Assembly: GCA_012523545.1 (NCBI GenBank)
Contig: JAAYIH010000027.1
Location: forward strand, 79,073 to 143,072
Direction: 5' to 3'
DNA from: Bacillota bacterium
GTDB lineage: Bacteria > Bacillota > Proteinivoracia > UBA4975
DNA: 64,000 nt
Shown: in pieces, positions 35,364-49,759 of the stretch
How positions within the stretch are numbered: the first letter of the stretch is position 1
Layout: every line of letters begins with the position of its first letter
The notes under the pieces: model-generated
What the model was told of the DNA's origin: nothing
What the model saw: the letters and a program-made list of their open reading frames with translations, nothing else
The model's database searches: none
Made by a program: the position numbers and the translations under genes

Positions 35364-36497
35364 ATGATGGCGGTGCAAACCTACAGACCGACGCGGGCAG
35401 AGATTAATCTGGCTAACATCGCCCATAATGTCCGGGAATTCCGGCGCCACATTCCCCAGCCCACCAGGCTTATGGCAGTGGTCAAGGCCGACGGATACGG
35501 GCACGGCGCCGTTGAAGTGAGCCGGGCGGCCCTGGCTGCCGGTGCCGAATGGCTGGCAGTGGCCCTGGCGGAAGAGGGCATCCGCCTCCGCCAGGCCGGC
35601 CTGGCGGCCCCCGTACTTATCCTGGGATATCTGCCTCCCGAATCCATCGGCGCCGTCATCCAATACCGCCTCACCCCGGGCATTACAGACAGGGAGACCC
35701 TGGAACTCCTGGAAGACGAAGCCCGGCGGCAGAGGCGTCGGGTGGGGGTTCATGTCAAGGTGGACACCGGCATGGGCAGGCTGGGCCTTCGCGGAGCGGA
35801 CGGCCTGGACCTGGCGCGGCGGATAATGGCGTCGGCCCATCTGGAACTGGAAGGCATTTATACTCATTTTGCCGCCGCCGACGAGGCGGACAAGGGGTTT
35901 ACCCTGGCGCAATTGGATAATTTTAAATCCCTGGTGGAAACAATAAAGAAGGAAAAGCCGCAGGTAATAGCCCACTGCGCCAACAGCGCCGCCGCCATTG
36001 AAATACCCCAGGCCCGTTTCGACATGGTGCGTATCGGCATCAGCCTGTACGGCCTGTATCCTTCGCCGGAAGTGAAGCCATTGGTGGCACTAAGGCCGGC
36101 CATGTCTCTGCACACCCGCATCGCCTTTGTCAAGGAAGTGCCCGCCCACACCCCCATCAGCTACGGCCGCACTTATTACACTTCCCGGCCCAGCCGCATC
36201 GCCACCCTGCCCCTGGGATATGCCGACGGGTACATGCGGCAACTGTCGGGAAAAGCCAGTGTGTTGATTCGGGGGCGCCGTGTTCCCCAGGTGGGCCGCA
36301 TTTGCATGGACTACTGCATGGTGGACGTCACCGACCTTCCCCCGGTGGGTCCCGGTGAACCGGTGGTGGTTTTCGGCCGCCAGGGCGACGGCGAAATCTC
36401 CGCCGACGAACTGGCCAGGCTGGCGGGGACAATAAATTACGAGATTGTCTGCGCCGTTTCTTCCCGGGTGCCCAGGCATTATACGTACCAGGCTTGA
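35364..36497 (+). CDS. alr: Alanine racemase
   Basis: RAEINLANIAHNVREFR, MAVVKADGYGHGAVEVS (PLP lysine), RICMDYCMVDVTDLP. Confidence 0.94.
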   Translation: MMAVQTYRPTRAEINLANIAHNVREFRRHIPQPTRLMAVVKADGYGHGAVEVSRAALAAGAEWLAVALAEEGIRLRQAGLAAPVLILGYLPPESIGAVIQYRLTPGITDRETLELLEDEARRQRRRVGVHVKVDTGMGRLGLRGADGLDLARRIMASAHLELEGIYTHFAAADEADKGFTLAQLDNFKSLVETIKKEKPQVIAHCANSAAAIEIPQARFDMVRIGISLYGLYPSPEVKPLVALRPAMSLHTRIAFVKEVPAHTPISYGRTYYTSRPSRIATLPLGYADGYMRQLSGKASVLIRGRRVPQVGRICMDYCMVDVTDLPPVGPGEPVVVFGRQGDGEISADELARLAGTINYEIVCAVSSRVPRHYTYQA

Positions 36498-36587: not shown

Positions 36588-36860
36588 GTGGCTCAAACCA
36601 AGCGGATCATGATTTCCCTTCCCAATACTCTGTTGCAGGAAGTCGACGGCATTGCCAACCAGGAGAATATTAACCGCAGCCAGTTGATTCGCGAGGCCAT
36701 GCGTTTCTACATCAATGAGCTGAAAAAACGCCAGATTCGCCAGCGCCTGCAGCTGGGTTATGTGGAAATGTCCAAGATCAACCTCAGCCTGGCCAACGAA
36801 GCGGTGGAAGCAGAAAACGAAGCCGTCAGGACTATTGAAACCATGGTCGGCGGGGCGTGA
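36588..36860 (+). CDS. Ribbon-helix-helix antitoxin (MazE/EndoAI-like)
   Basis: [40 protein letters not shown], next to MazF. Confidence 0.88.
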
Positions 36861-36864
36861 GGCC

Positions 36865-37215
36865 ATGAATGTCAAGCGGGGCGATGTCTTTTTTGCTGAT
36901 TTGAGCCCGGTGGTGGGTTCGGAACAGGGCGGCGTGCGCCCGGTGCTGATTATCCAAAATGACGTGGGCAACAAATACAGCCCTACAGTGATTGTGGCGG
37001 CCATCACCTCCCAGATCCAAAAAGCCAAGTTGCCCACCCATGTCGAGATAACCGCCGCGGAACACGGCCTCGACAGGGATTCGGTGGTGCTATTGGAGCA
37101 GATTCGCACCATTGACAAGCAGCGCCTCAATGAAAGGGTGACCCACCTGGCTCCGGAACTGATGGAGCGGGTGGATGAAGCTCTGCAGATCAGCCTGGGG
37201 CTCATCGATTTTTAA
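36865..37215 (+). CDS. MazF/EndoA mRNA interferase toxin
   Basis: [48 protein letters not shown]. Confidence 0.95.
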
Positions 37216-38139: not shown

Positions 38140-38916
38140 TTGGTAAACAAAGTATGGTTGCATCACAACAGCTGGGATGAGGTTGCGGAGTATCTGAAGC
38201 GGTCGCAGGTCATCATTATTCCCGTTGGCAGCATTGAGCAGCATGGGGAACACTTGCCACTGGGGACGGACACAATGGTCGCCGAAGCCATTGCCCAGTC
38301 CGTTGCCGAGCAGGCAGGCGTACTGACGGCGCCTGCGGTAAGTTACGGCTGGAGCCCGCACCACATGGTTTTGCCCGGCACAGTAACCATCCGCCCCGAA
38401 GTTCTCATTGAATATCTCTACGATGTTATCGAAAGCCTGGCTCAACACGGGTTCAAAAAGTTTTTGCTGCTGAACGGCCATCGCATTGTCAACATCAGCT
38501 GGATGCAAATTGCCGGAGAGCGGGCGAAGCGGAAGCTGGCGGTGGATGTCCTGGTAGCCGATCCGGCCTATCTGTCCAAGGAGCTGGCAAAGCAGGAAGG
38601 AATGGGGCTCATAGGCCATGCCGACGAGCTGGAAACCTCTCATATGCTCTATGTTCGCGGCGAATTTGTGCAAATGGAAAAAGCCCGGGATTTTTCCCAC
38701 CAACGTCCGGACTACAAGCAGGTGGATCCCCGGGTAGAAAAAGACACTCTCTGCTATGTCCCCAGCACCAAAGAGGAAATGGGCGAGTCGGTCAGGGCGG
38801 CCGGAGGTACATCGGGGCAACCCACCAGATCCTCTGTTGAGTTCGGCGCCAAATACCATGATTGGGTGGTAGCGAAGCTGGTCACAATCATTAAGGAATG
38901 GCAGATAAGTAACTAG
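38140..38916 (+). CDS. Creatininase (creatinine amidohydrolase) family protein
   Basis: IIIPVGSIEQHGEHLPLGTDTMVAEAIA, LLLNGHRIVNISWMQ, GHADELETSHML metal ligands; TTG start after AAGGAGGTG. Confidence 0.85.
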   Translation: MVNKVWLHHNSWDEVAEYLKRSQVIIIPVGSIEQHGEHLPLGTDTMVAEAIAQSVAEQAGVLTAPAVSYGWSPHHMVLPGTVTIRPEVLIEYLYDVIESLAQHGFKKFLLLNGHRIVNISWMQIAGERAKRKLAVDVLVADPAYLSKELAKQEGMGLIGHADELETSHMLYVRGEFVQMEKARDFSHQRPDYKQVDPRVEKDTLCYVPSTKEEMGESVRAAGGTSGQPTRSSVEFGAKYHDWVVAKLVTIIKEWQISN

Positions 38917-38967
38917 CATCCCCTCTATTTCAATTCCGTCATACCAAAAAAAGAAAGGGGAAAAAGG

Positions 38968-39237
38968 ATGCCTGCTGCGAAGAAGGAAAGTTTGATTGTA
39001 GCGGTCTTTTTTATCATCACCCTGCTCATGACCAATCCGCCCGTGGTGAACTGGGTCAGCGCCTATGCCGAGGAAAATCCTCTGCTCTTCGGCTGGCCCA
39101 CACTGTGGGTATGGTTGCAGGTCTGGTACCTGCTCATGATCGGCGGCCTGATTTGGTTTGGCCTCAAGTTTAAGAGTTGGAATGTGGAGTACATCGAAGA
39201 GTCGGTAGAGGGACATCTGGACGGGGGTGACAAATAG
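38968..39237 (+). CDS. Small membrane subunit accompanying the SSS-family symporter
   Basis: Two TM helices; its TAG overlaps the GTG of the downstream symporter by 1 nt. Confidence 0.65.
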   Translation: MPAAKKESLIVAVFFIITLLMTNPPVVNWVSAYAEENPLLFGWPTLWVWLQVWYLLMIGGLIWFGLKFKSWNVEYIEESVEGHLDGGDK

Positions 39238-40727
39238 TGGAAAACTGGATGCTCGGCACTGCAATAATCGGCATTTACCTGGCGCTCACGCTGTATATCG
39301 GCTATCGTAGCTGGAAGGCAAGCCAAAAATATGAGAACAGTATCGAAGACTTTGCTGTGGCCAGCGGTTCCTTTGGCATCTTAGTGCTCACCCTGACCTT
39401 TGCCGCTACTTTCCACAGCGCATACGCCTTCACCGGCATCGTCGGGTTTGTCTACAATGACGGCGTAGGATTTTGGGTCAACGGTCTGTGGCTGGTGCCC
39501 CCTGCTCTGTTGTTCTGGATCTTCGGTCGCCGCCTGTGGATTTTGGGCAAGAAACACAAGTTTTTCTCTTTGGCTGAGTATATGGCCAAATTTTATAACT
39601 CCGACTTAATTGGTCTGTTAACTGTTCTAATTCATGCGGTATTTATCACGCCCTATATCGGCATCCAGCTGACAGGTTCAGGTTATATCTTCGAAACGGT
39701 AACTGAAGGAATGATTCCCTTTGCCCTGGGCGCCACAGTCATGATGGTTATTCTGATCATTTACGTCTGGGCAGGGGGTATGCGGGCTGTGGCCTGGACC
39801 GACACATTCCAGGGCATCTTTATGTTCATTGGGATTTTGCTCGGCAGCTGGCTGATTGTCCGCAATGTGGCCGGATCGGCGACGGCTGCTTTCCAGGAGG
39901 CAGTTCAAGCAATACCGGAGTTCTTCTCGCTGCCGGGGCCCTCGGGAGCGATTACGCCAGGGAACTACATTTCCCGCTGGGTGGTCACCTGCCTGGGAAT
40001 GGCCATGGGGCCGCACATCATTATCCGGATGTTCACGGCCAAGTCTTTGAAGGTCCTGAAGTGGTCCAGCATTCTCGGCGCAGTTTACCTTACCGTCATC
40101 TACTGGTTTACGCCGGCCGTTGGCGCCCTGGCCCGGGTCATTTCGCCCGGTGCAGCGCGTCCCGACCAGTTGATGGTCGACTACCTCTGGCAATATACAC
40201 CGGTAATATTTGCGGCAATTATGCTGGGCGGCGGGTTCGCTGCCGCCATGTCCACCGCCGATTCCCAGGCCCACGCCGTGGCGACAACTGTATCGGTGGA
40301 CCTTTACAAAAAGCATATTAAGCCGAATGCCACCTCCCGGCAGTTGACCATGGTTTCCCGCTGGATGATCGTCATCCTGTCGCTGGTTAGCTTGTACATC
40401 GCCATCACCAGTCCTCAGGCGCTGGTCAACTTGCTGGCAATCTCCACCGGCGGCATCGCTCAGTTGACGCCCGCTTTTGTCGGCAGCTTGTATTGGAAGC
40501 GGTCCAGCAAGGCCGGAGCCCTGGCCAGCATCATCGGCGGCCTGGCTGCTCTGATTATCACTCAGTTCTACTGGGTTAACCCCTTTGGACTTGGCGTGTT
40601 GGCGCCCTTCTGGGGCTTGGTTGTCGGCAGCATCCTGTTTGTCGTCGTCAGCCTGATTACCCCGCCGGTGGACGAGAAGACCATTGAGGAAACCCAAGTA
40701 TTTGCCACCGAGGTAATCAACGGATAA
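39237..40727 (+). CDS. Sodium:solute symporter family (SSS) transporter
   Basis: Multi-TM; FAVASGSFGILVLTLTFAATFHSAYAFTGIVGF, FAAAMSTADSQAHAVATTVSVDLYK. Confidence 0.88.
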   Translation: MENWMLGTAIIGIYLALTLYIGYRSWKASQKYENSIEDFAVASGSFGILVLTLTFAATFHSAYAFTGIVGFVYNDGVGFWVNGLWLVPPALLFWIFGRRLWILGKKHKFFSLAEYMAKFYNSDLIGLLTVLIHAVFITPYIGIQLTGSGYIFETVTEGMIPFALGATVMMVILIIYVWAGGMRAVAWTDTFQGIFMFIGILLGSWLIVRNVAGSATAAFQEAVQAIPEFFSLPGPSGAITPGNYISRWVVTCLGMAMGPHIIIRMFTAKSLKVLKWSSILGAVYLTVIYWFTPAVGALARVISPGAARPDQLMVDYLWQYTPVIFAAIMLGGGFAAAMSTADSQAHAVATTVSVDLYKKHIKPNATSRQLTMVSRWMIVILSLVSLYIAITSPQALVNLLAISTGGIAQLTPAFVGSLYWKRSSKAGALASIIGGLAALIITQFYWVNPFGLGVLAPFWGLVVGSILFVVVSLITPPVDEKTIEETQVFATEVING

Positions 40728-40743
40728 TTTAATAAAGTGTGGT

Positions 40744-40768
40744 GCGGCCCTGCTTTTGGAAGGGCCGC
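40744..40768 (+). terminator. Hairpin terminator between symporter and regulator genes
   Basis: GCGGCCCT-9 nt-AGGGCCGC-TTTACTATTTT. Confidence 0.55.
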
Positions 40769-40840
40769 TTTACTATTTTAGCAGGATTCAGCACGGCCTT
40801 TGGCGTATTATTGTGTACTAACATTACAGAGGGCCTGCAT

Positions 40841-41533
40841 GTGGATGGGTTGTTATTGAAGCTTCTGGGCGACTGCGGCGTAGTAAGGGCCTATAATCCC
40901 AACGAGATTATTCACCTGGCCCATATACCTCCGGAAACCGTTTTTCTTATTCACGAAGGGAAAGTCAAGCACTTGGTTTATAATGAGAACGGCGAAGAAA
41001 AGATCCTCCTCATCCTGAAGGAGGGCGATATCTTTGGCGAGGTGACCTATTTTCAGCAGGACGCCAACATGGTGGTAACCCAGGCCATCAGTCCCTGCCG
41101 GATCGCTTCAATTCCCGCAACCAAGTTTCAAAAAAAGCTTGAAGAACACCCCGAGTTATATCCCGAGATTGTCAGGTTGCTTACGTACAAGATGCGGATA
41201 GTTATGTCCCAAATCAAGGATATGGCCTTCCAGAACGTTGAAGGACGGCTGGCCAATCTGCTCCTGCGCCTGGCCGACCAACAGGGCAAGGTGACAGAAT
41301 CGGGGCATGTTATGATCGACTTCGATGTTACCCATCAGGAACTGGCCAACATGATTGCGGCCTACCGCTCTACGGTATCCAGGATAATGCGCCGTCTGTG
41401 TATGCATCAAATCATCCGGGTGGTACAAAAGCGGGTAACAATCCTGGATTATTTGGGTCTGCAGCAAATCGCCAATTCTAGTTCTGAACAGAAAGAAACG
41501 CCACCAGAGGCGCGGGCAAGAGGCTTACCCTGA
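40841..41533 (+). CDS. CRP/FNR-family transcriptional regulator
   Basis: cNMP-binding-like LKEGDIFGEVTYFQQDANMV; HTH VTHQELANMIAAYRSTVSRIMRRLCMHQII. N-terminal start uncertain. Confidence 0.85.
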   Translation: MDGLLLKLLGDCGVVRAYNPNEIIHLAHIPPETVFLIHEGKVKHLVYNENGEEKILLILKEGDIFGEVTYFQQDANMVVTQAISPCRIASIPATKFQKKLEEHPELYPEIVRLLTYKMRIVMSQIKDMAFQNVEGRLANLLLRLADQQGKVTESGHVMIDFDVTHQELANMIAAYRSTVSRIMRRLCMHQIIRVVQKRVTILDYLGLQQIANSSSEQKETPPEARARGLP

Positions 41534-41739: not shown

Positions 41740-41991
41740 GCAACGTCTATAATTATAAAGGAACCTGCCGGCAATGTCAATGTGATTGCCTGGCAGGATA
41801 CCTGGAAGGATTAACGCCATATTTTGGCTTCAGGATACCCTTGTTTTTCCATTTTCTTATCGTATTTGCTTTTTTAAAAAATATATTTAAATTAGTAAGG
41901 GCGCATTTTCCTTAAATTACTTTCCGCCCTTAAGGGTGCTGCACCAGTTTCTCCTTCCTGGCAGCGTGAACGTTCTACTGGAGTTTGCCAG

Positions 41992-42020
41992 CGGCAGCTG
42001 CGCGCAGCTGCCGTTTTTTG
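41992..42020 (+). terminator. Intrinsic terminator/attenuator upstream of the D-cysteine desulfhydrase operon
   Basis: CGGCAGCTGC-gc-GCAGCTGCCG-TTTTTT. Confidence 0.75.
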
Positions 42021-42095: not shown

Positions 42096-43109
42096 ATGCC
42101 CGTGCTCGACAAACGCCTGGAACTTGGCCACCTGCCCACTCCCCTGGAACGGGCGGACAAGCTGACAGATTTCCTGGCCGGCCCCCGGATATTTATCAAG
42201 CGGGACGATGCCACCGGCCTGGCCGGAGGCGGCAACAAGGTCCGCAAGCTGGAATACCTGGCGGCAGCTGCCCTGGAACAGGGCGCCAACTGCCTGGTCA
42301 CAGTAGGCGGTCCCCAGTCCAACCACGCCCGGTTGACCGCTGCTGCAGCTGCCCGCCTGGGTTTAAAGTGCCGCCTGTATTTACAGGGCCAGGCTCCCCG
42401 GAAACTGGCGGGCAATATCCTTTTGGACAGGCTGCTGGGCGCCGAGCTGGTTTTCTGCGGCGAAGCCGGGTACCCGGAAATCTATGCGCAGATTGACCGG
42501 GACGGGGCCAGGCTGAGGGAGCAGGGCGTGGAAATATATAAAATTCCCGTGGGCGGTTCAACCCCCGTCGGCGCTCTGGGCTATGTCCGGGCGGTGACGG
42601 AAGAGCTGGTTCCTCAGTGCCGGCAGGCGGGGTTGAGGCCCGCGGCTATTATTGTCGCCGCCGGCTCCGGCGGCACCATGGCGGGACTGATGCTGGGTCT
42701 GGCTGTGGCCGGCTGGGAAGTTCCCGTTTGCGGGTACAGCGTCGGTCCCGACGCCCGGACCCTGCAGCGGGAAGTGGCCGACATCCACAACGGGGCCGCC
42801 CGGCTGCTGGGGGTGCCCCACTGCATCCAGCCCGAACAGGTTTGCATTGACGCGACTCCGAGCGGGACCGGTTACGGCATTGCCACGCCGCAAGCCCTGG
42901 AGGCTCTCGCCCTCTTCGCCCGCCTGGAAGGGATACTCCTGGATTCGGTTTACACCGCCAAAGCCGCCGCCGGCATGATTGCCGACATCCGCCGGGGCAG
43001 GTGGAAGGACGAAGCCGTTGTTTTCCTGCACACCGGCGGCTGGCCGGCGCTTTTTGCCAAAGACGATGTGGAATTATGGCTGCGCGAGGAGGGTGAGCAG
43101 TGCCGTTAA
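42096..43109 (+). CDS. D-cysteine desulfhydrase / ACC deaminase family PLP enzyme
   Basis: IFIKRDDATGLAGGGNKVRKLEYL, GGPQSNHARLTAAAAARLG, AAGSGGTMAGLMLG. Confidence 0.85.
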   Translation: MPVLDKRLELGHLPTPLERADKLTDFLAGPRIFIKRDDATGLAGGGNKVRKLEYLAAAALEQGANCLVTVGGPQSNHARLTAAAAARLGLKCRLYLQGQAPRKLAGNILLDRLLGAELVFCGEAGYPEIYAQIDRDGARLREQGVEIYKIPVGGSTPVGALGYVRAVTEELVPQCRQAGLRPAAIIVAAGSGGTMAGLMLGLAVAGWEVPVCGYSVGPDARTLQREVADIHNGAARLLGVPHCIQPEQVCIDATPSGTGYGIATPQALEALALFARLEGILLDSVYTAKAAAGMIADIRRGRWKDEAVVFLHTGGWPALFAKDDVELWLREEGEQCR

Positions 43110-43798
43110 TCGCAGTAACCTGCATGTACGATGACAAAGAACGGCGGAGTTTCCTCAAGGACGGCTACATACAGGCCCTGGAAAGGGTTGGCGCCGTTGC
43201 CGCCGTGTTGCCGCCGTCCCTCTCCCCCCAGGCCAGCGCTCAGGCGCTGAGCCGCATGGACGGTTTGCTCCTCAGCGGGGGAACGGATGTGGCGCCCCTG
43301 CGTTACGGTCAACAGCCCCGCCCCAACCTGGGGCCGGTTGACCCGCTCCGGGATGAACAGGAATTCGCCCTGGTGCGGAAAGCCATTGAGCTGGGCTTGC
43401 CCATCCTGGGTATCTGCCGGGGCATGCAAGTTATCAATGCCGTTTTGGGCGGCGATCTGATTCAACATATAGACGGGAACATTCAGCATCAACAGCAGGC
43501 CCCGGGCTGGCACCGCCATCACAGCGTACGCATCGAGCCCGGCACAATCCTGGCCCGGGCGCTGGGCCGCAGCGAGCTGGGTGTCAACAGTTTCCACCAC
43601 CAGGCCGTGGGCACGGTGGCTCCCGGGCTCAAGGTCAGTGCCCGCTCCCCCGACGGCATCATTGAGGCCGTCGAAAGCAGCGAGCCCTGGATTCTGGCGG
43701 TGCAATGGCACCCCGAGCTGATGTGGCAGCGGCATGAAGAGTTCCTGGCCATATTCCGGGCCTTTGTGGGCGCCTGCAGGGGCGAAGAGAATGGGTAA
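43100..43798 (+). CDS. Gamma-glutamyl-gamma-aminobutyrate hydrolase family (peptidase C26)
   Basis: LLLSGGTDVAPLRYGQQP, PILGICRGMQVINAVLGGDLIQHI, VNSFHHQAV, VQWHPE. Confidence 0.9.
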   Translation: MPLIAVTCMYDDKERRSFLKDGYIQALERVGAVAAVLPPSLSPQASAQALSRMDGLLLSGGTDVAPLRYGQQPRPNLGPVDPLRDEQEFALVRKAIELGLPILGICRGMQVINAVLGGDLIQHIDGNIQHQQQAPGWHRHHSVRIEPGTILARALGRSELGVNSFHHQAVGTVAPGLKVSARSPDGIIEAVESSEPWILAVQWHPELMWQRHEEFLAIFRAFVGACRGEENG

Positions 43799-44861
43799 AA
43801 GGCTGCGGGATTGGGGGATAATTTTGCCCGGTCTCCCCCCGGGAAAGCTCAATGCCATCACCGATGTCCGGGGCGTTGGCGTAGGCCACTGCACCGTCAT
43901 CGAAGGCGACTCCATCCGCACCGGCGTCACCGCCGTCCTGCCCCACCCGGGCAATTTGTTTGTGCACAAGGTGCCGGCCGCCGTGGAGGTAATCAACGGG
44001 TTTGGCAAAGCCGTCGGCCTCAGCCAGGTCAAAGAACTGGGGGAAATCGAGACGCCCATAATCCTTACCAACACCCTCAGCGTCGGCGTCGCTCTGGACG
44101 CCCTGGTGGAATACAAGCTGGAACGCAACCCCGAAATAGGGCGCAAATTTCCTACCGTCAACGGCGTGGTGGCGGAATGCAACGACGGTTTCCTCAACGA
44201 CATCCGCGCCCGGGCCGTCACCCGCCGGCACGTCCGGGCCGCCATCGCCGCCGCCGGTACCGGGTTGCCCCGGGAAGGCAATGTGGGGGCGGGAACGGGC
44301 ATGTCTTCCTTTGACCACAAAGGCGGCATCGGCACCAGTTCCCGGGTGGCCGAGCCTTATACCGTAGGGGTGCTGGTGCTGAGCAACTTTGGGCGCTGGC
44401 CCCAGTTGAAGATTGCCGGTGTGCCGGTGGGTCAATTGCTGCCCGGGCCCCAACCGGCCGGGCAGGAGCAGGGTTCCATAGTCATCATCGTGGCCACCGA
44501 CGCGCCCCTGGACGCCAGGCAGCTGGGCCGCCTGGCCAGGCGGGCGGGCTTTGGTCTGGCCCGCACCGGCTCGGTGGCCGGTCACGGCAGCGGCGACTTC
44601 GTCATCGCCTTTTCCACCGGCGTCAACTGCCAGGCCGTTGACCAGGACCGCCTGGCGGCAGAACGCCTGCGGGACGACAAGCTGGAACCTCTTTTTCAGG
44701 CCACGGTGGAGGCCACCGAGGAGGCCATTCTCAACGCCCTGTTTGCCGCAGAAGCCATGGAAGGGCGCGACGGCAACAGCCGCAAAGCCCTGCCGGTGGC
44801 AGATATCCTGGAGATTCTGAGCAAGTACCGCGCCATTAACAAGGGGAGGAATGACATTTGA
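43791..44861 (+). CDS. P1/DmpA family aminopeptidase (N-terminal nucleophile autoproteolytic)
   Basis: LNAITDVRGVGVGHCTVIEG; VGAGTGMSSFDHKGGIGTSSR; GVLVLSNFG around the expected autocleavage serine. Confidence 0.88.
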   Translation: MGKRLRDWGIILPGLPPGKLNAITDVRGVGVGHCTVIEGDSIRTGVTAVLPHPGNLFVHKVPAAVEVINGFGKAVGLSQVKELGEIETPIILTNTLSVGVALDALVEYKLERNPEIGRKFPTVNGVVAECNDGFLNDIRARAVTRRHVRAAIAAAGTGLPREGNVGAGTGMSSFDHKGGIGTSSRVAEPYTVGVLVLSNFGRWPQLKIAGVPVGQLLPGPQPAGQEQGSIVIIVATDAPLDARQLGRLARRAGFGLARTGSVAGHGSGDFVIAFSTGVNCQAVDQDRLAAERLRDDKLEPLFQATVEATEEAILNALFAAEAMEGRDGNSRKALPVADILEILSKYRAINKGRNDI

Positions 44862-45874
44862 AGCAAGCGGAAGTATTGGTGGAAGTAACCCGGGGACCGT
44901 TGGTGGAGAACTGGCACCGGGGGCATGTGGCTGTAGTGGACTGGCAGGGGAAGTTGCTGTACAGCGCCGGCGACCCGTATCACATTACGTACTGGCGCAG
45001 TTCGGCCAAACCCTTCCAGGCCTTGCCGGTGGTGGAGTCCGGCGCCGCCGACAGGTTCGGCATTACCCCCCGGGAACTGGCCCTGTTCTGCGCTTCCCAT
45101 AATGGTGAGGAGATGCATACCGAAACGGTCAAGGGCATCTTTGCCAAGCTGGGTAAAGATCCTGCCCTGCTTCAGTGCGGGGTGCACATGCCCTACCATG
45201 CGCCCACCGCCAAGGCCATGCTTCGGGCGGGGCAGGAACCCACGCCTCTGCACTGCAATTGCTCGGGCAAGCATTCGGGCATGCTGGCCTTATGCGTCCA
45301 TCTGGGCTATGACCCGGGCACTTACCTGGAGCCGGACCACCCCGTCCAGCAGCTAATCCTGGATTATATTGCCGACTTGACCGGGTATCCCCGGGGAGAA
45401 ATAGCCATCGGCATCGACGGTTGCGGCGTTCCCGTCCACGGGTTGCCCGTTTACAACATGGCCTGGGCCTATGCCCGCCTGGCCCGGCCCGCAGGCTTGA
45501 GCCCGCAAAGGGCCGAGGCCTGCCGCCGAGTGGCATCCGCCATGATTGCCCATCCCGAAATGGTGGGCGGCACTGACCGCTTCTGCACCGAACTGATGCG
45601 GGCGGGGGGCGGCCAACTGGTGGGCAAGGCCGGCGCCGCCGGCGTCTACTGCGTGGGCATAATGGATGAAGGCATAGGCATTGCCGTCAAGTGCGAAGAC
45701 GGTTCCGGTAGAGGCCGGGCTCCGGCGGTGGTGGAAATCCTGGCGCAGTTGGGATACCTGGATTCCGGCCAGCTGGAGGCCCTGGCCAAATTCCACCGCC
45801 CGCAAAACCTCAACCACCGCAAGGAAAAATGCGGCGAGGTAATCCCCGTAGTGCGCCTGAAAAAGGAGTGCTGA
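44858..45874 (+). CDS. L-asparaginase II family (Rhizobium-type) protein
   Basis: VEVTRGPLVENWHRGHVAVVDWQGK, RSSAKPFQALPVVESG, CASHNGE, CNCSGKHSGMLA, GIDGCGVPVHGLP. Confidence 0.88.
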   Translation: MKQAEVLVEVTRGPLVENWHRGHVAVVDWQGKLLYSAGDPYHITYWRSSAKPFQALPVVESGAADRFGITPRELALFCASHNGEEMHTETVKGIFAKLGKDPALLQCGVHMPYHAPTAKAMLRAGQEPTPLHCNCSGKHSGMLALCVHLGYDPGTYLEPDHPVQQLILDYIADLTGYPRGEIAIGIDGCGVPVHGLPVYNMAWAYARLARPAGLSPQRAEACRRVASAMIAHPEMVGGTDRFCTELMRAGGGQLVGKAGAAGVYCVGIMDEGIGIAVKCEDGSGRGRAPAVVEILAQLGYLDSGQLEALAKFHRPQNLNHRKEKCGEVIPVVRLKKEC

Positions 45875-45876
45875 AC

Positions 45877-46686
45877 GTGAGGGTATTTATATCTGCCGAC
45901 CTGGAAGGCATATCCGGCGTCGTCCACGCCGAACACACCCGCCGCGACGGCCGGGAGCACGATCTGGCCCGGCGCCTGATGACGGCGGAGGTCAATGCCG
46001 CCATTGAAGGGGCCCTGGCGGGCGGGGCCGGCGAAGTGGTGGTCAACGATTCCCACGGCACCATGCGCAACCTGCTGCCCGACCTCCTGCACCCCAAGGC
46101 CCAGCTGATAACCGGTTCGCCCAAGCCCCTGTCCATGATGGAGGGGATTGACGACGGCGCTTACTGCTGCGCAATGTTTGTCGGCTACCATGCCCGCATG
46201 GGCCAGCCGGGGGTCCTCAGCCACACCTACCACGGAGCGGTGGTGCGGGAGGTGCGCCTCAACGGCCGGGCCATGGGCGAGACGGGTATCAACGCCGCTT
46301 TGGCGGGTTATTTTGGCGTCCCGGTGACCCTGGTGACGGGTGACGACCGGGTGTGCCGGGAGGCGGCGGACCTCATCCCGGGGATCGTTACCGCCCCGGT
46401 CAAGCACGCCAGGACCCGGTTTTCGGCCCGCTGCCTGCATCCCCAGGCGGCCTGCGCGCTGATCCGCGCCAGGGCCGAGGAAGCCGTAAGGGCCAAAGTG
46501 GAGCCCCTGGTGCTGGCGCAACCCGTCACCCTGGAACTGAGTTTTCTCCACTCCGGCCAGGCCGAGGCGGTGGCGGGACTGCCGGGGGTGGAAATGCTCG
46601 ACCCTGTCACCGTGAGCTTTACCGGAGATATGCTCCAGACCTTTCGCGTGCTGCGGGCCCTGCTGACCCTGGCGGCGTCGGTGTAA
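45877..46686 (+). CDS. D-aminopeptidase DppA family (peptidase M55)
   Basis: VRVFISADLEGISGVVHAEHT; VNDSHGTMRNLLPDLLHPKAQLI; FVGYHARMG. Confidence 0.92.
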   Translation: MRVFISADLEGISGVVHAEHTRRDGREHDLARRLMTAEVNAAIEGALAGGAGEVVVNDSHGTMRNLLPDLLHPKAQLITGSPKPLSMMEGIDDGAYCCAMFVGYHARMGQPGVLSHTYHGAVVREVRLNGRAMGETGINAALAGYFGVPVTLVTGDDRVCREAADLIPGIVTAPVKHARTRFSARCLHPQAACALIRARAEEAVRAKVEPLVLAQPVTLELSFLHSGQAEAVAGLPGVEMLDPVTVSFTGDMLQTFRVLRALLTLAASV

Positions 46687-46731: not shown

Positions 46732-48885
46732 GTGACTGATGTTGAAAAGAGAATGCTGCAGACCATAGCCCGGGACCTGAACATTCCCTTAAAACAGGTT
46801 GCAGATACCGTCAAACTGCTGGACGAGGGCAATACAGTCCCCTTCATTGCCCGCTACCGCAAAGAAGTGACCGGGGGCCTGGATGAAGAACAAATCTTTG
46901 CCCTGCAGCAACAGATCAATTACCAGCGCAATCTCCAGCAGCGCAAGGAGGAAGTGCTGCGCAGCATTGCCGAACAGGGCAAGCTGACGCCGGAACTGGA
47001 AAAACAAATTACAGAAAGCACCCGGCTCCAGCAGGTGGAAGACCTCTACCGGCCCTACAAACCCAAGCGCAATACCCGGGGCAGCAAGGCGCGGGAAGCC
47101 GGCCTGGAGCCCCTGGCTGACATTCTCAGGGCCGGCGTCCTCGATCCCTTAGCCGAAGCGGTGAAATACATAAACGAGCAGGTTGCCGACGTCCAGGCCG
47201 CCCTGCAAGGCGCCATGGACATAATTGCCGAAGACTTTGCCGACGCTGCTGACAACCGCGTCATTGCCCGGCGGCGCACCTGGGACAAAGCTGTCCTGGT
47301 GGTCCGGGCCAGCGATCCCGGGGCCCAGTCGGTATACGAAATGTACTACGATTTCCGGGAGCCGGTGGCCAAAATACCTCCCCACCGGGTGCTGGCCATC
47401 AACCGGGGGGAACGGGAAGAATTTCTCAAAGTTTCCCTGGACTTCGACCCCCAGTACCTTCTCCAGGAACTGTGGCGGCGCAATTTCCAGCCCCAACGGG
47501 ATGACGCCGCCCAGTACGTGCGGCAGGCCATGGAAGACGGCTACCAGCGCCTGCTGGCTCCCGCCGTGGAGAGGGACATTCGCCGCCAGCTGACCGAGAT
47601 GGCCCATGCTGCGGCGTACAAGCTGTTTTCCGCCAACCTCACCAGCCTGCTCCTCCAGCCGCCCACCCGGGGCAAGACGGTGCTGGGCGTCGACCCGGCC
47701 TACCGGACGGGGTGCAAGCTGGCGGTGGTGGACCCCACCGGCAAACTCCTGGCCGTGGACGTCATATATCCCACTCCTCCCCACAACCAGGTGGAGGCGT
47801 CCCGGCGCAAGGTCAAAGAGCTCATCGCCCGGTACGGCGTCAACGTCATTGCCATCGGCAACGGTACCGCCAGCCGGGAGACCACCGAGTTTATCGGGGA
47901 ACTGACCCAGGAACTGGACGGGGTGTCCTACACCGTCGTCGACGAATCGGGGGCTTCGGTGTATTCGGCGGCGCCGCTGGCCAAGGAAGAGTTTCCTGAT
48001 CTGGACGTGGCGGAGCGTTCTGCCGTCTCCATTGCCCGCCGCCTCCAGGATCCCCTGTCGGAGCTGGTGAAAATCCCGCCCCAGTCCATTGGGGTGGGCC
48101 AGTACCAGCACGACGTCGACCAGAAGGAACTGGCCCGGCTGCTGGGCGAAGTGGTGGAAATCTGCGTCAACCGGGTGGGGGCGGACCTCAACACCGCCTC
48201 GGCGCCGTTGCTTTCCTACATTGCCGGCATCAAGCCTGCCGTGGCCAAAGCCATTGTAGTCTGGCGCCAGCAGAACGGGCCCTTTACCGAACGCAGCCAG
48301 TTGCTGGCGGTTCCCCGCCTGGGCGAGGCCACCTTCCAGCAGTGCGCCGGTTTTCTGCGCATCCGGGACGGCAGCAATCCCCTGGACGCCACCACCGTGC
48401 ACCCCGAATCCTATGAGGTGGCGGAAAAGCTGCTGGGCCTGTGCGGGTACACCACCGCCGATCTGGCCAGCCGCGGCGGCATTCCCGAACTGAGCAGCAA
48501 ACTGCCGGCGCCGGTGGAGAAACTGGCCCGGCAACTGGGGGTCGGGGAGCCTACCCTGCGGGACATCATCGCTGCCCTGGAAAAACCCGCCCTGGATCCC
48601 CGGGACAAATTGCCGCCGCCCCTCTTCCGGGAAGGTGTGCTCACCCTGGACGACCTCACCGAGGGCATGATCCTGCAGGGCACGGTGCGCAATGTCACCG
48701 ATTTCGGCGCTTTTGTGGATATCGGCCTCAAGGAGGCGGGCCTGGTTCACGTCTCGGAGCTGTCGGATAAATACGTCAAGCACCCCCTGGAAGTTGTCAG
48801 CGTAGGGGAGCACATCAGCGTGCGGGTCATCGGCGTCGACAAGCGACGCAACCGCATTTCCCTCTCCTGCAGAGGGGTACATTAA
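46732..48885 (+). CDS. tex: Tex-type transcription accessory/S1 RNA-binding protein
   Basis: KQVADTVKLLDEGNTVPFIARYRKEVTGGLDEEQI; SVYSAAPLAKEEFPDLDVAERSAVSIARRLQDPLSELVKI; C-terminal S1 VTDFGAFVDIGLKEAGLVHVSEL. Confidence 0.95.
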   Translation: MTDVEKRMLQTIARDLNIPLKQVADTVKLLDEGNTVPFIARYRKEVTGGLDEEQIFALQQQINYQRNLQQRKEEVLRSIAEQGKLTPELEKQITESTRLQQVEDLYRPYKPKRNTRGSKAREAGLEPLADILRAGVLDPLAEAVKYINEQVADVQAALQGAMDIIAEDFADAADNRVIARRRTWDKAVLVVRASDPGAQSVYEMYYDFREPVAKIPPHRVLAINRGEREEFLKVSLDFDPQYLLQELWRRNFQPQRDDAAQYVRQAMEDGYQRLLAPAVERDIRRQLTEMAHAAAYKLFSANLTSLLLQPPTRGKTVLGVDPAYRTGCKLAVVDPTGKLLAVDVIYPTPPHNQVEASRRKVKELIARYGVNVIAIGNGTASRETTEFIGELTQELDGVSYTVVDESGASVYSAAPLAKEEFPDLDVAERSAVSIARRLQDPLSELVKIPPQSIGVGQYQHDVDQKELARLLGEVVEICVNRVGADLNTASAPLLSYIAGIKPAVAKAIVVWRQQNGPFTERSQLLAVPRLGEATFQQCAGFLRIRDGSNPLDATTVHPESYEVAEKLLGLCGYTTADLASRGGIPELSSKLPAPVEKLARQLGVGEPTLRDIIAALEKPALDPRDKLPPPLFREGVLTLDDLTEGMILQGTVRNVTDFGAFVDIGLKEAGLVHVSELSDKYVKHPLEVVSVGEHISVRVIGVDKRRNRISLSCRGVH

Positions 48886-48917: not shown

Positions 48918-49739
48918 ATGAATACCAAGGAAATCATGGACCTGGCCCTGGAGCTGGCCGGGCTGAAGGAAATACCCGACGACTCGGGCATTATCGTGGC
49001 AGGGAAAGACATCAAAAAAGTCGCCTTTGGCGTCGACATGGAAGCGGCGGAAATGCTCATCGCCCGGGAACTGGGGGTTGACCTGGTCATTACCCACCAC
49101 CCCGTGGGCGGGGCTCCGCGCCTCAACCTGTACAAGGTCATGGAAAACCAAATCGAGCGCATGGCAGCTGCCGGCGTTCCCGTCAACAAAGCCCAGAAAG
49201 CGTTGCGGGAGCAGATGGGCAAGGTGGAACGCAGCCTGCACGTCTCCAACTACGACCGGGCGGCGTCGGCAGCCCGCCTGCTCAAAATGCCCTTCATGGG
49301 TATCCACTCTCCCGCCGACGTCATCAGCGAACGCACAGTGCAACAGCATCTGGACAACAGTCTCAATCCCAGGTCCACCCTGGGCGACGTCATCGAGGCA
49401 CTGCAGCAAATCCCCGAGTACCGCAACGCACTGACCAAGCCGGAAATCCGGGTGGGTGCAGAAAAGGATTACGCCGGCAAGGTATTTGTGACCATGGCGG
49501 GGGGCACCAACGGCGGCGCCAAGGTGGCCCAGGCCTACTTCGAAGCGGGGATTGGCACCCTGGTCTGCATGCACATGCCCGAAGAGGTCATCAAGGCCGT
49601 CAAGGAGCAGAACATCGGCAACGTCATCGTGGCCGGTCACATGGCCAGCGACTCCATAGGCATCAACGTCATCATCGCCGCCCTGGAAGAGCGTGGCCTG
49701 GAAGTGATCCGCATGAGCGGGGTAATCGATCCAAATTAA
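48918..49739 (+). CDS. NIF3-like dinuclear metal-center protein
   Basis: VAFGVDMEAAEMLIARELGVDLVITHHPVGG; C-terminal LVCMHMPEEVIKAVKE...GHMASDSIGIN. Confidence 0.78.
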   Translation: MNTKEIMDLALELAGLKEIPDDSGIIVAGKDIKKVAFGVDMEAAEMLIARELGVDLVITHHPVGGAPRLNLYKVMENQIERMAAAGVPVNKAQKALREQMGKVERSLHVSNYDRAASAARLLKMPFMGIHSPADVISERTVQQHLDNSLNPRSTLGDVIEALQQIPEYRNALTKPEIRVGAEKDYAGKVFVTMAGGTNGGAKVAQAYFEAGIGTLVCMHMPEEVIKAVKEQNIGNVIVAGHMASDSIGINVIIAALEERGLEVIRMSGVIDPN

Positions 49740-49759
49740 GGCGGGAATCCCGCCTTTTT
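49738..49759 (+). terminator. Intrinsic terminator
   Basis: AAGGCGGG-aat-CCCGCCTT-TTT. Confidence 0.75.

Follow-up and report, generated by a model that had tools for sequence, protein, structure and literature searches.

Five overlapping genes in the window (the whole 64,000-nucleotide stretch of Bacillota DNA that was analysed) encode enzymes of known families in an apparently undescribed combination. On balance, we favor the view that their products work in the cytosol to salvage small peptides and amides with D-, gamma- or beta-linkages, as an interchangeable guild rather than as a linear pathway. Relatives keep varying subsets of these genes in the same order, which argues that the locus is probably a real salvage toolkit made of known enzymes. 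In the limited open-access literature consulted, we found nothing on operons combining S58 and M55 (DmpA/DppA) or on a D-aminopeptidase together with D-Cys desulfhydrase and asparaginase.

Organization of the operon

The five genes are:

42096..43109, + strand: D-cysteine desulfhydrase/ACC-deaminase-like PLP enzyme (PALP family; DCD), PF00291, 6.3e-46
43100..43798, + strand: peptidase C26, gamma-glutamyl hydrolase-like, Lin1909/PuuD type, PF07722, 4.5e-65
43791..44861, + strand: S58 (P1) self-cleaving aminopeptidase, PF03576, 9.1e-120 over residues 21–330
44858..45874, + strand: class-3 L-asparaginase (Asparaginase_II; AsnII), PF06089, 1.3e-131
45877..46686, + strand: M55 D-aminopeptidase (DppA-like), PF04951, 2.7e-100

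The open reading frames have exactly these coordinates, overlap by 10, 8, and 4 nt and end with a 2-nt gap before the M55 gene. Coordinates, overlaps and Pfam matches all agree with a preliminary description of five overlapping same-strand genes of these families, and the profile matches exceed the Pfam cut-offs by a wide margin. Purine-rich stretches resembling ribosome-binding sites lie upstream of the five starts, and at the E-value cut-offs used each of the five enzyme families has one match in the genome.

Four further features define the likely limits of the transcript:

41990..42015, + strand: terminator-like hairpin just 5' of the operon, dividing it from the preceding genes (consensus match only)
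46732..48885, + strand: gene for a Tex-like protein, 45 nt 3' of the M55 gene and probably read through
48918..49739, + strand: gene for a Nif3-like protein, with a ribosome-binding site at its start at 48918; probable end of the unit
49738..49756, + strand: intrinsic-terminator-like hairpin with a T tail (consensus match only)

We infer that the five genes are co-transcribed as one set. Consensus matching found no terminator-like site in the gap between M55 and tex, which, together with the flanking hairpins, suggests that tex and the Nif3-like gene may share the operon transcript. The unit therefore probably extends past M55 to the hairpin at 49738–49756. The tex family (f18) is a recurrent downstream neighbor that adjoins the cluster in many loci of relatives, where the family of the Nif3-like protein (f20) is also found.

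Assignment of the five enzymes

The first gene product scores 285 bits against the D-cysteine desulfhydrase family model TIGR01275, 4 bits below the cut-off of 289.4, and 335 bits against the CuyA profile, well under its cut-off of 450. It keeps the PLP lysine (Lys48), Ser75, Tyr286-Thr287, and Thr313, with roles that we take to be those of the PLP family; Tyr286-Thr287 and Thr313 resemble the residues of the Salmonella D-Cys desulfhydrase, and ACC deaminase has Glu there. ACC deaminase was rejected as an identity for this protein on account of this active-site Tyr followed by Thr. The enzyme is a PLP-dependent beta-elimination lyase of a family active on free amino acids, instead of the amide-bond enzyme implied by the preliminary description. 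The D-Cys desulfhydrase family is D-specific and is associated with resistance to D-Cys.

The C26 protein matches its family profile with 219.9 bits and contains the triad Cys106-His204-Glu206, to which we presumptively assign the roles known for the family. Its best solved relative is Lin1909 (3fij, 3e-47), and its score against the PuuD equivalog NF008471 is 104 bits, below the cut-off of 266.

The third protein belongs to the S58 family (PF03576), with 2drh (3e-102) as its closest structural relative, followed by 1b65 (1.6e-63). It keeps the Gly-Ser229 self-cleavage site with its nucleophile and Asn199, the equivalent of Asn218 in DmpA; the roles of these residues are presumably those of the family. 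Residue 131 (codon 44181–44183), at the position of DmpA Tyr146, is Asn, as in 2drh. This is the one exception among the otherwise intact active sites of the five enzymes, and by this residue the protein falls outside the DmpA/BapA subfamily. Thus, the earlier assignment to the P1/DmpA type holds at the level of the family, and the D- or beta-specificity of DmpA and BapA cannot be transferred to this member of the 2drh group. Asn occupies the Tyr146 position in 90 of 97 S58 sequences (18 of 19 from clusters) and Tyr in two; Asn is thus the norm of this group, which suggests a separate, little-studied subfamily.

The closest solved relatives of AsnII are 8cly (2.8e-76) and 7os3 (9.5e-61). All seven catalytic and zinc residues of Rhizobium etli ReAV are conserved (Ser48, Lys51, Ser80, Lys257, Cys135, Lys138, and Cys189), giving the two Ser-Lys pairs and the Cys/Lys/Cys zinc site of class 3 within PF06089. 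The name "asparaginase II" is right as to family (Asparaginase_II) and can be refined: as far as sequence can tell, the protein is a class-3 enzyme of the R. etli AIV/AV type with predicted L-asparaginase activity. It differs from ReAIV and ReAV in its operon context. Studied members of the family hydrolyze free L-Asn and are not known for activity on D- or iso-type bonds, and ReAV is described as devoid of glutaminase activity (PMC8602277).

The M55 protein aligns with DppA (1hi9, 8e-57) and retains the five zinc ligands and the catalytic His (Asp8, Glu10, His60, His105, His116, and Glu135, aligned to 1hi9), for which we assume the residue roles of the M55 family. Its score of 262 bits lies below the curated cut-off of 430 of the DppA equivalog NF058634.

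Solved homologues are available for all five proteins. The theme of non-canonical bonds put forward in the preliminary description agrees with the C26, S58, and M55 families; AsnII, from a family acting on free L-Asn, and the lyase, from one acting on free amino acids, fall outside it.

Proposed salvage function

In the salvage scheme, imported fragments of cell wall or aged protein would be converted to amino acids and 2-oxo acids for central metabolism. Gamma-glutamyl amides would yield glutamate through the C26 hydrolase, and N-terminal D- or beta-type residues would be stripped by the self-cleaving S58 enzyme and the zinc-dependent M55 enzyme (for M55, from D-Ala peptides, for example). 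Deamidation of asparagine would fall to AsnII. From D-Cys or a similar D-amino acid that bears a leaving group in the beta position, the PLP enzyme would generate pyruvate and ammonia along with sulfide or sulfite. We infer these substrates, their import and the physiological role of the set; the five proteins have no signal peptides apparent by inspection, pointing to a cytosolic location, and three SBP_bac_5 matches at other places in the genome point to import. A search of the genome for an LD-carboxypeptidase S66 (LdcA type), common in wall-peptide recycling, found none, which weakens wall recycling as the source of the substrates.

In ageing sediments, D-amino acids accumulate and D-aminopeptidase activity has been measured (PMC6752024). 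The gene sets behind D-amino-acid turnover in uncultured bacteria are poorly defined, and the five-family locus offers named candidates and a genomic marker. It also gives a likely context for the widespread C26 and class-3 asparaginase genes.

Conservation of gene set and order

Gene-order conservation in relatives, named in the preliminary description as a check, is borne out. Genome G006, from another family of the same order, carries the same five genes in the same order, and subsets in this order recur among 250 genomes of the phylum. These were searched for each family, and pairs within 3 kb were counted with the window genome excluded; the counts are approximate, taking C26 among the matches listed and S58 among the strongest matches. 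AsnII and C26 are paired in 28 of the 53 other genomes with both (among the C26 matches listed), and AsnII and M55 in 11 of 35. Among the same listed C26 matches, C26 pairs with M55 in 13/49 genomes and with the lyase gene in 8/36. Counted among the strongest S58 matches, S58 lies near C26 (matches listed) in 7 of 29 genomes, near the lyase gene in 6 of 18 and near AsnII in 5 of 27. By our own estimate, single-copy genes placed at random would be expected to pair at a frequency of a few tenths of 1% per genome. Recurrence of the subsets across the phylum is far above random placement.

All clusters with at least three members in the 250 genomes are ordered DCD-C26-S58-AsnII-M55, and many genomes have just two members side by side. 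Such differences in composition speak against a single fixed pathway of five steps and in favor of parallel activities.

Chromosomal neighborhood

Upstream of the operon, the window contains:

35364..36497, + strand: alanine racemase (alr), PF01168/PF00842; a conserved landmark, with the same family 5' of the cluster in relatives
36760..37215, + strand: MazF/EndoA-like toxin gene, PF02452, 1.2e-38; second landmark
38140..41533, + strand: creatininase-family amidohydrolase, Na+/solute symporter and CRP/FNR regulator, PF02633, PF00474, PF13545

A tRNA-Trp also sits between alr-mazF and the operon. Among the loci viewed, the creatininase, SSS symporter and CRP regulator genes lie between mazF and the operon in the window genome only; the creatininase and symporter are possible amidase or uptake partners of the operon. 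In relatives, acpS-nnrD-alr-mazE-mazF often lie 5' of the cluster, and DUF362, tex, and nif3 genes are frequent on its 3' side.

Of the five families, C26 occurs most often at the alr-mazEF locus: in 51 of the 92 genomes with listed positions it lies no more than 9 kb from alr, and alr, mazF, tex or tsaE are near most sampled C26 loci. This placement, along with the unrelated housekeeping genes of the locus, would be expected if the five genes merely hitch-hiked in a conserved acpS-nnrD-alr-mazEF-tex neighborhood and shared no biochemical role. We regard this as unlikely, since 10 of the 14 C26–AsnII pairs with a listed alr position are distant from alr, so that their pairing is not a mere by-product of the locus; the S58 phylogeny and the Burkholderiales loci described below also speak against it.

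In many families of the phylum, as seen at L186–L205 and in the phylum sample, a C26 hydrolase gene lies 3' of alr-mazEF or 5' of tex/tsaE. We found no description of C26 with alanine racemase, or of a role for C26 beside alr, in the open-access literature consulted. A Bacillota-like alr/mazF/C26/S58/AsnII/M55 neighborhood also occurs in an Acetobacteraceae MAG (L103), probably misbinned; transfer was set aside because its alr-mazF neighbors are Bacillota-like, which makes misbinning likelier.

Probable repeated recruitment of S58

A quick tree of S58 proteins, with the locus-linked group defined from gene context, requires the cluster label to change eight times, and supported branches force at least three of these changes. 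A single clade of the 18 locus-linked sequences is rejected (delta lnL 106, p-AU 0.0005, four long or odd sequences omitted); L154, linked to a lyase gene away from the locus, was excluded from the group after the first tree. Since the locus-linked S58 genes do not form one clade, the locus probably acquired S58 on more than one occasion. The simplest explanation is repeated entry or replacement, and transfer plus loss may also account for the distribution. Only tentatively do we extend the salvage reading to a modular "odd-amide" locus nucleated by C26 beside alr, into which S58 was recruited repeatedly and in which M55, asparaginase, and lyase genes were assembled in a fixed order phylum-wide, serving an undescribed use of necromass rich in D-/iso-amino acids or of the cell's own wall peptides.

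The S58 protein of a Balneolaceae MAG (L032), probably misbinned, groups with that of the window in the tree.

Importers and relation to known systems

Bacillus subtilis dppABCDE combines the M55 peptidase DppA with a Dpp importer. The window M55 is of the same family, but its operon has four other enzymes in place of a transporter, and no Dpp importer genes were found between 38 and 51 kb of the window. Two relatives of the window genome, one close (L148) and one more distant (L220), have a dpp-like M55 operon.

Away from the locus, importers of the Dpp type (L148, L180, L220) or the Liv type (L154) adjoin M55 or S58 genes, and one of the Dpp type adjoins AsnII at L142. The association of S58 and M55 with importers points to uptake and use, and argues against damage control, in which the enzymes would rid the cell of toxic D-amino acids and of malformed amides that arise inside it, beside the NADHX repair gene of the locus. 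The proximity of nnrD to the cluster in relatives and the link of the desulfhydrase family with D-Cys resistance are in line with such clearance, which nevertheless appears quite improbable to us.

E. coli carries an iaaA-gsiABCD operon. Burkholderiales have a separate, extended version (RpiR–asparaginase_2 of the IaaA type–GsiABCD-like–S58–M55) that resembles the window in uniting an asparaginase-type enzyme, S58, and M55 in one operon, at a different locus. Its isoaspartyl-peptidase-type enzyme (PF01112) is non-homologous to AsnII (PF06089); the isoaspartyl theme suggested earlier finds a counterpart in these loci. The Burkholderiales version has an importer and a regulator, and lacks C26 and DCD. 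In Ralstonia solanacearum, genes whose annotation matches this operon, RSc1377 (regulator), RSc1378 (isoaspartyl peptidase), RSc1381 (GsiC), and RSc1384 (D-aminopeptidase), fall jointly in expression as roots are colonized (PMC5357869); the RSc1377–1384 numbers without a listing would, from gene order, be the remaining operon genes.

The Gsi-like importer, and the adjacency of desulfhydrase-like and gamma-glutamyl hydrolase-like genes in the window, could also fit a breakdown of glutathione-like thiol peptides, with C26 cutting the gamma-Glu bond, M55 or S58 splitting the Cys-dipeptide and the desulfhydrase yielding sulfide. We consider this very unlikely: the D-specificity of the desulfhydrase family, the absence of DCD or S58 from many clusters and the lack of a role for AsnII all weigh against it, and glutathione is uncommon in anaerobic Bacillota.

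At L154 (genome G089), S58 and DCD lie directly 5' of LivKHMGF-like importer genes with their mutual order reversed, and at L148 (G001) a creatininase-family gene is found inside the dpp-M55 operon.
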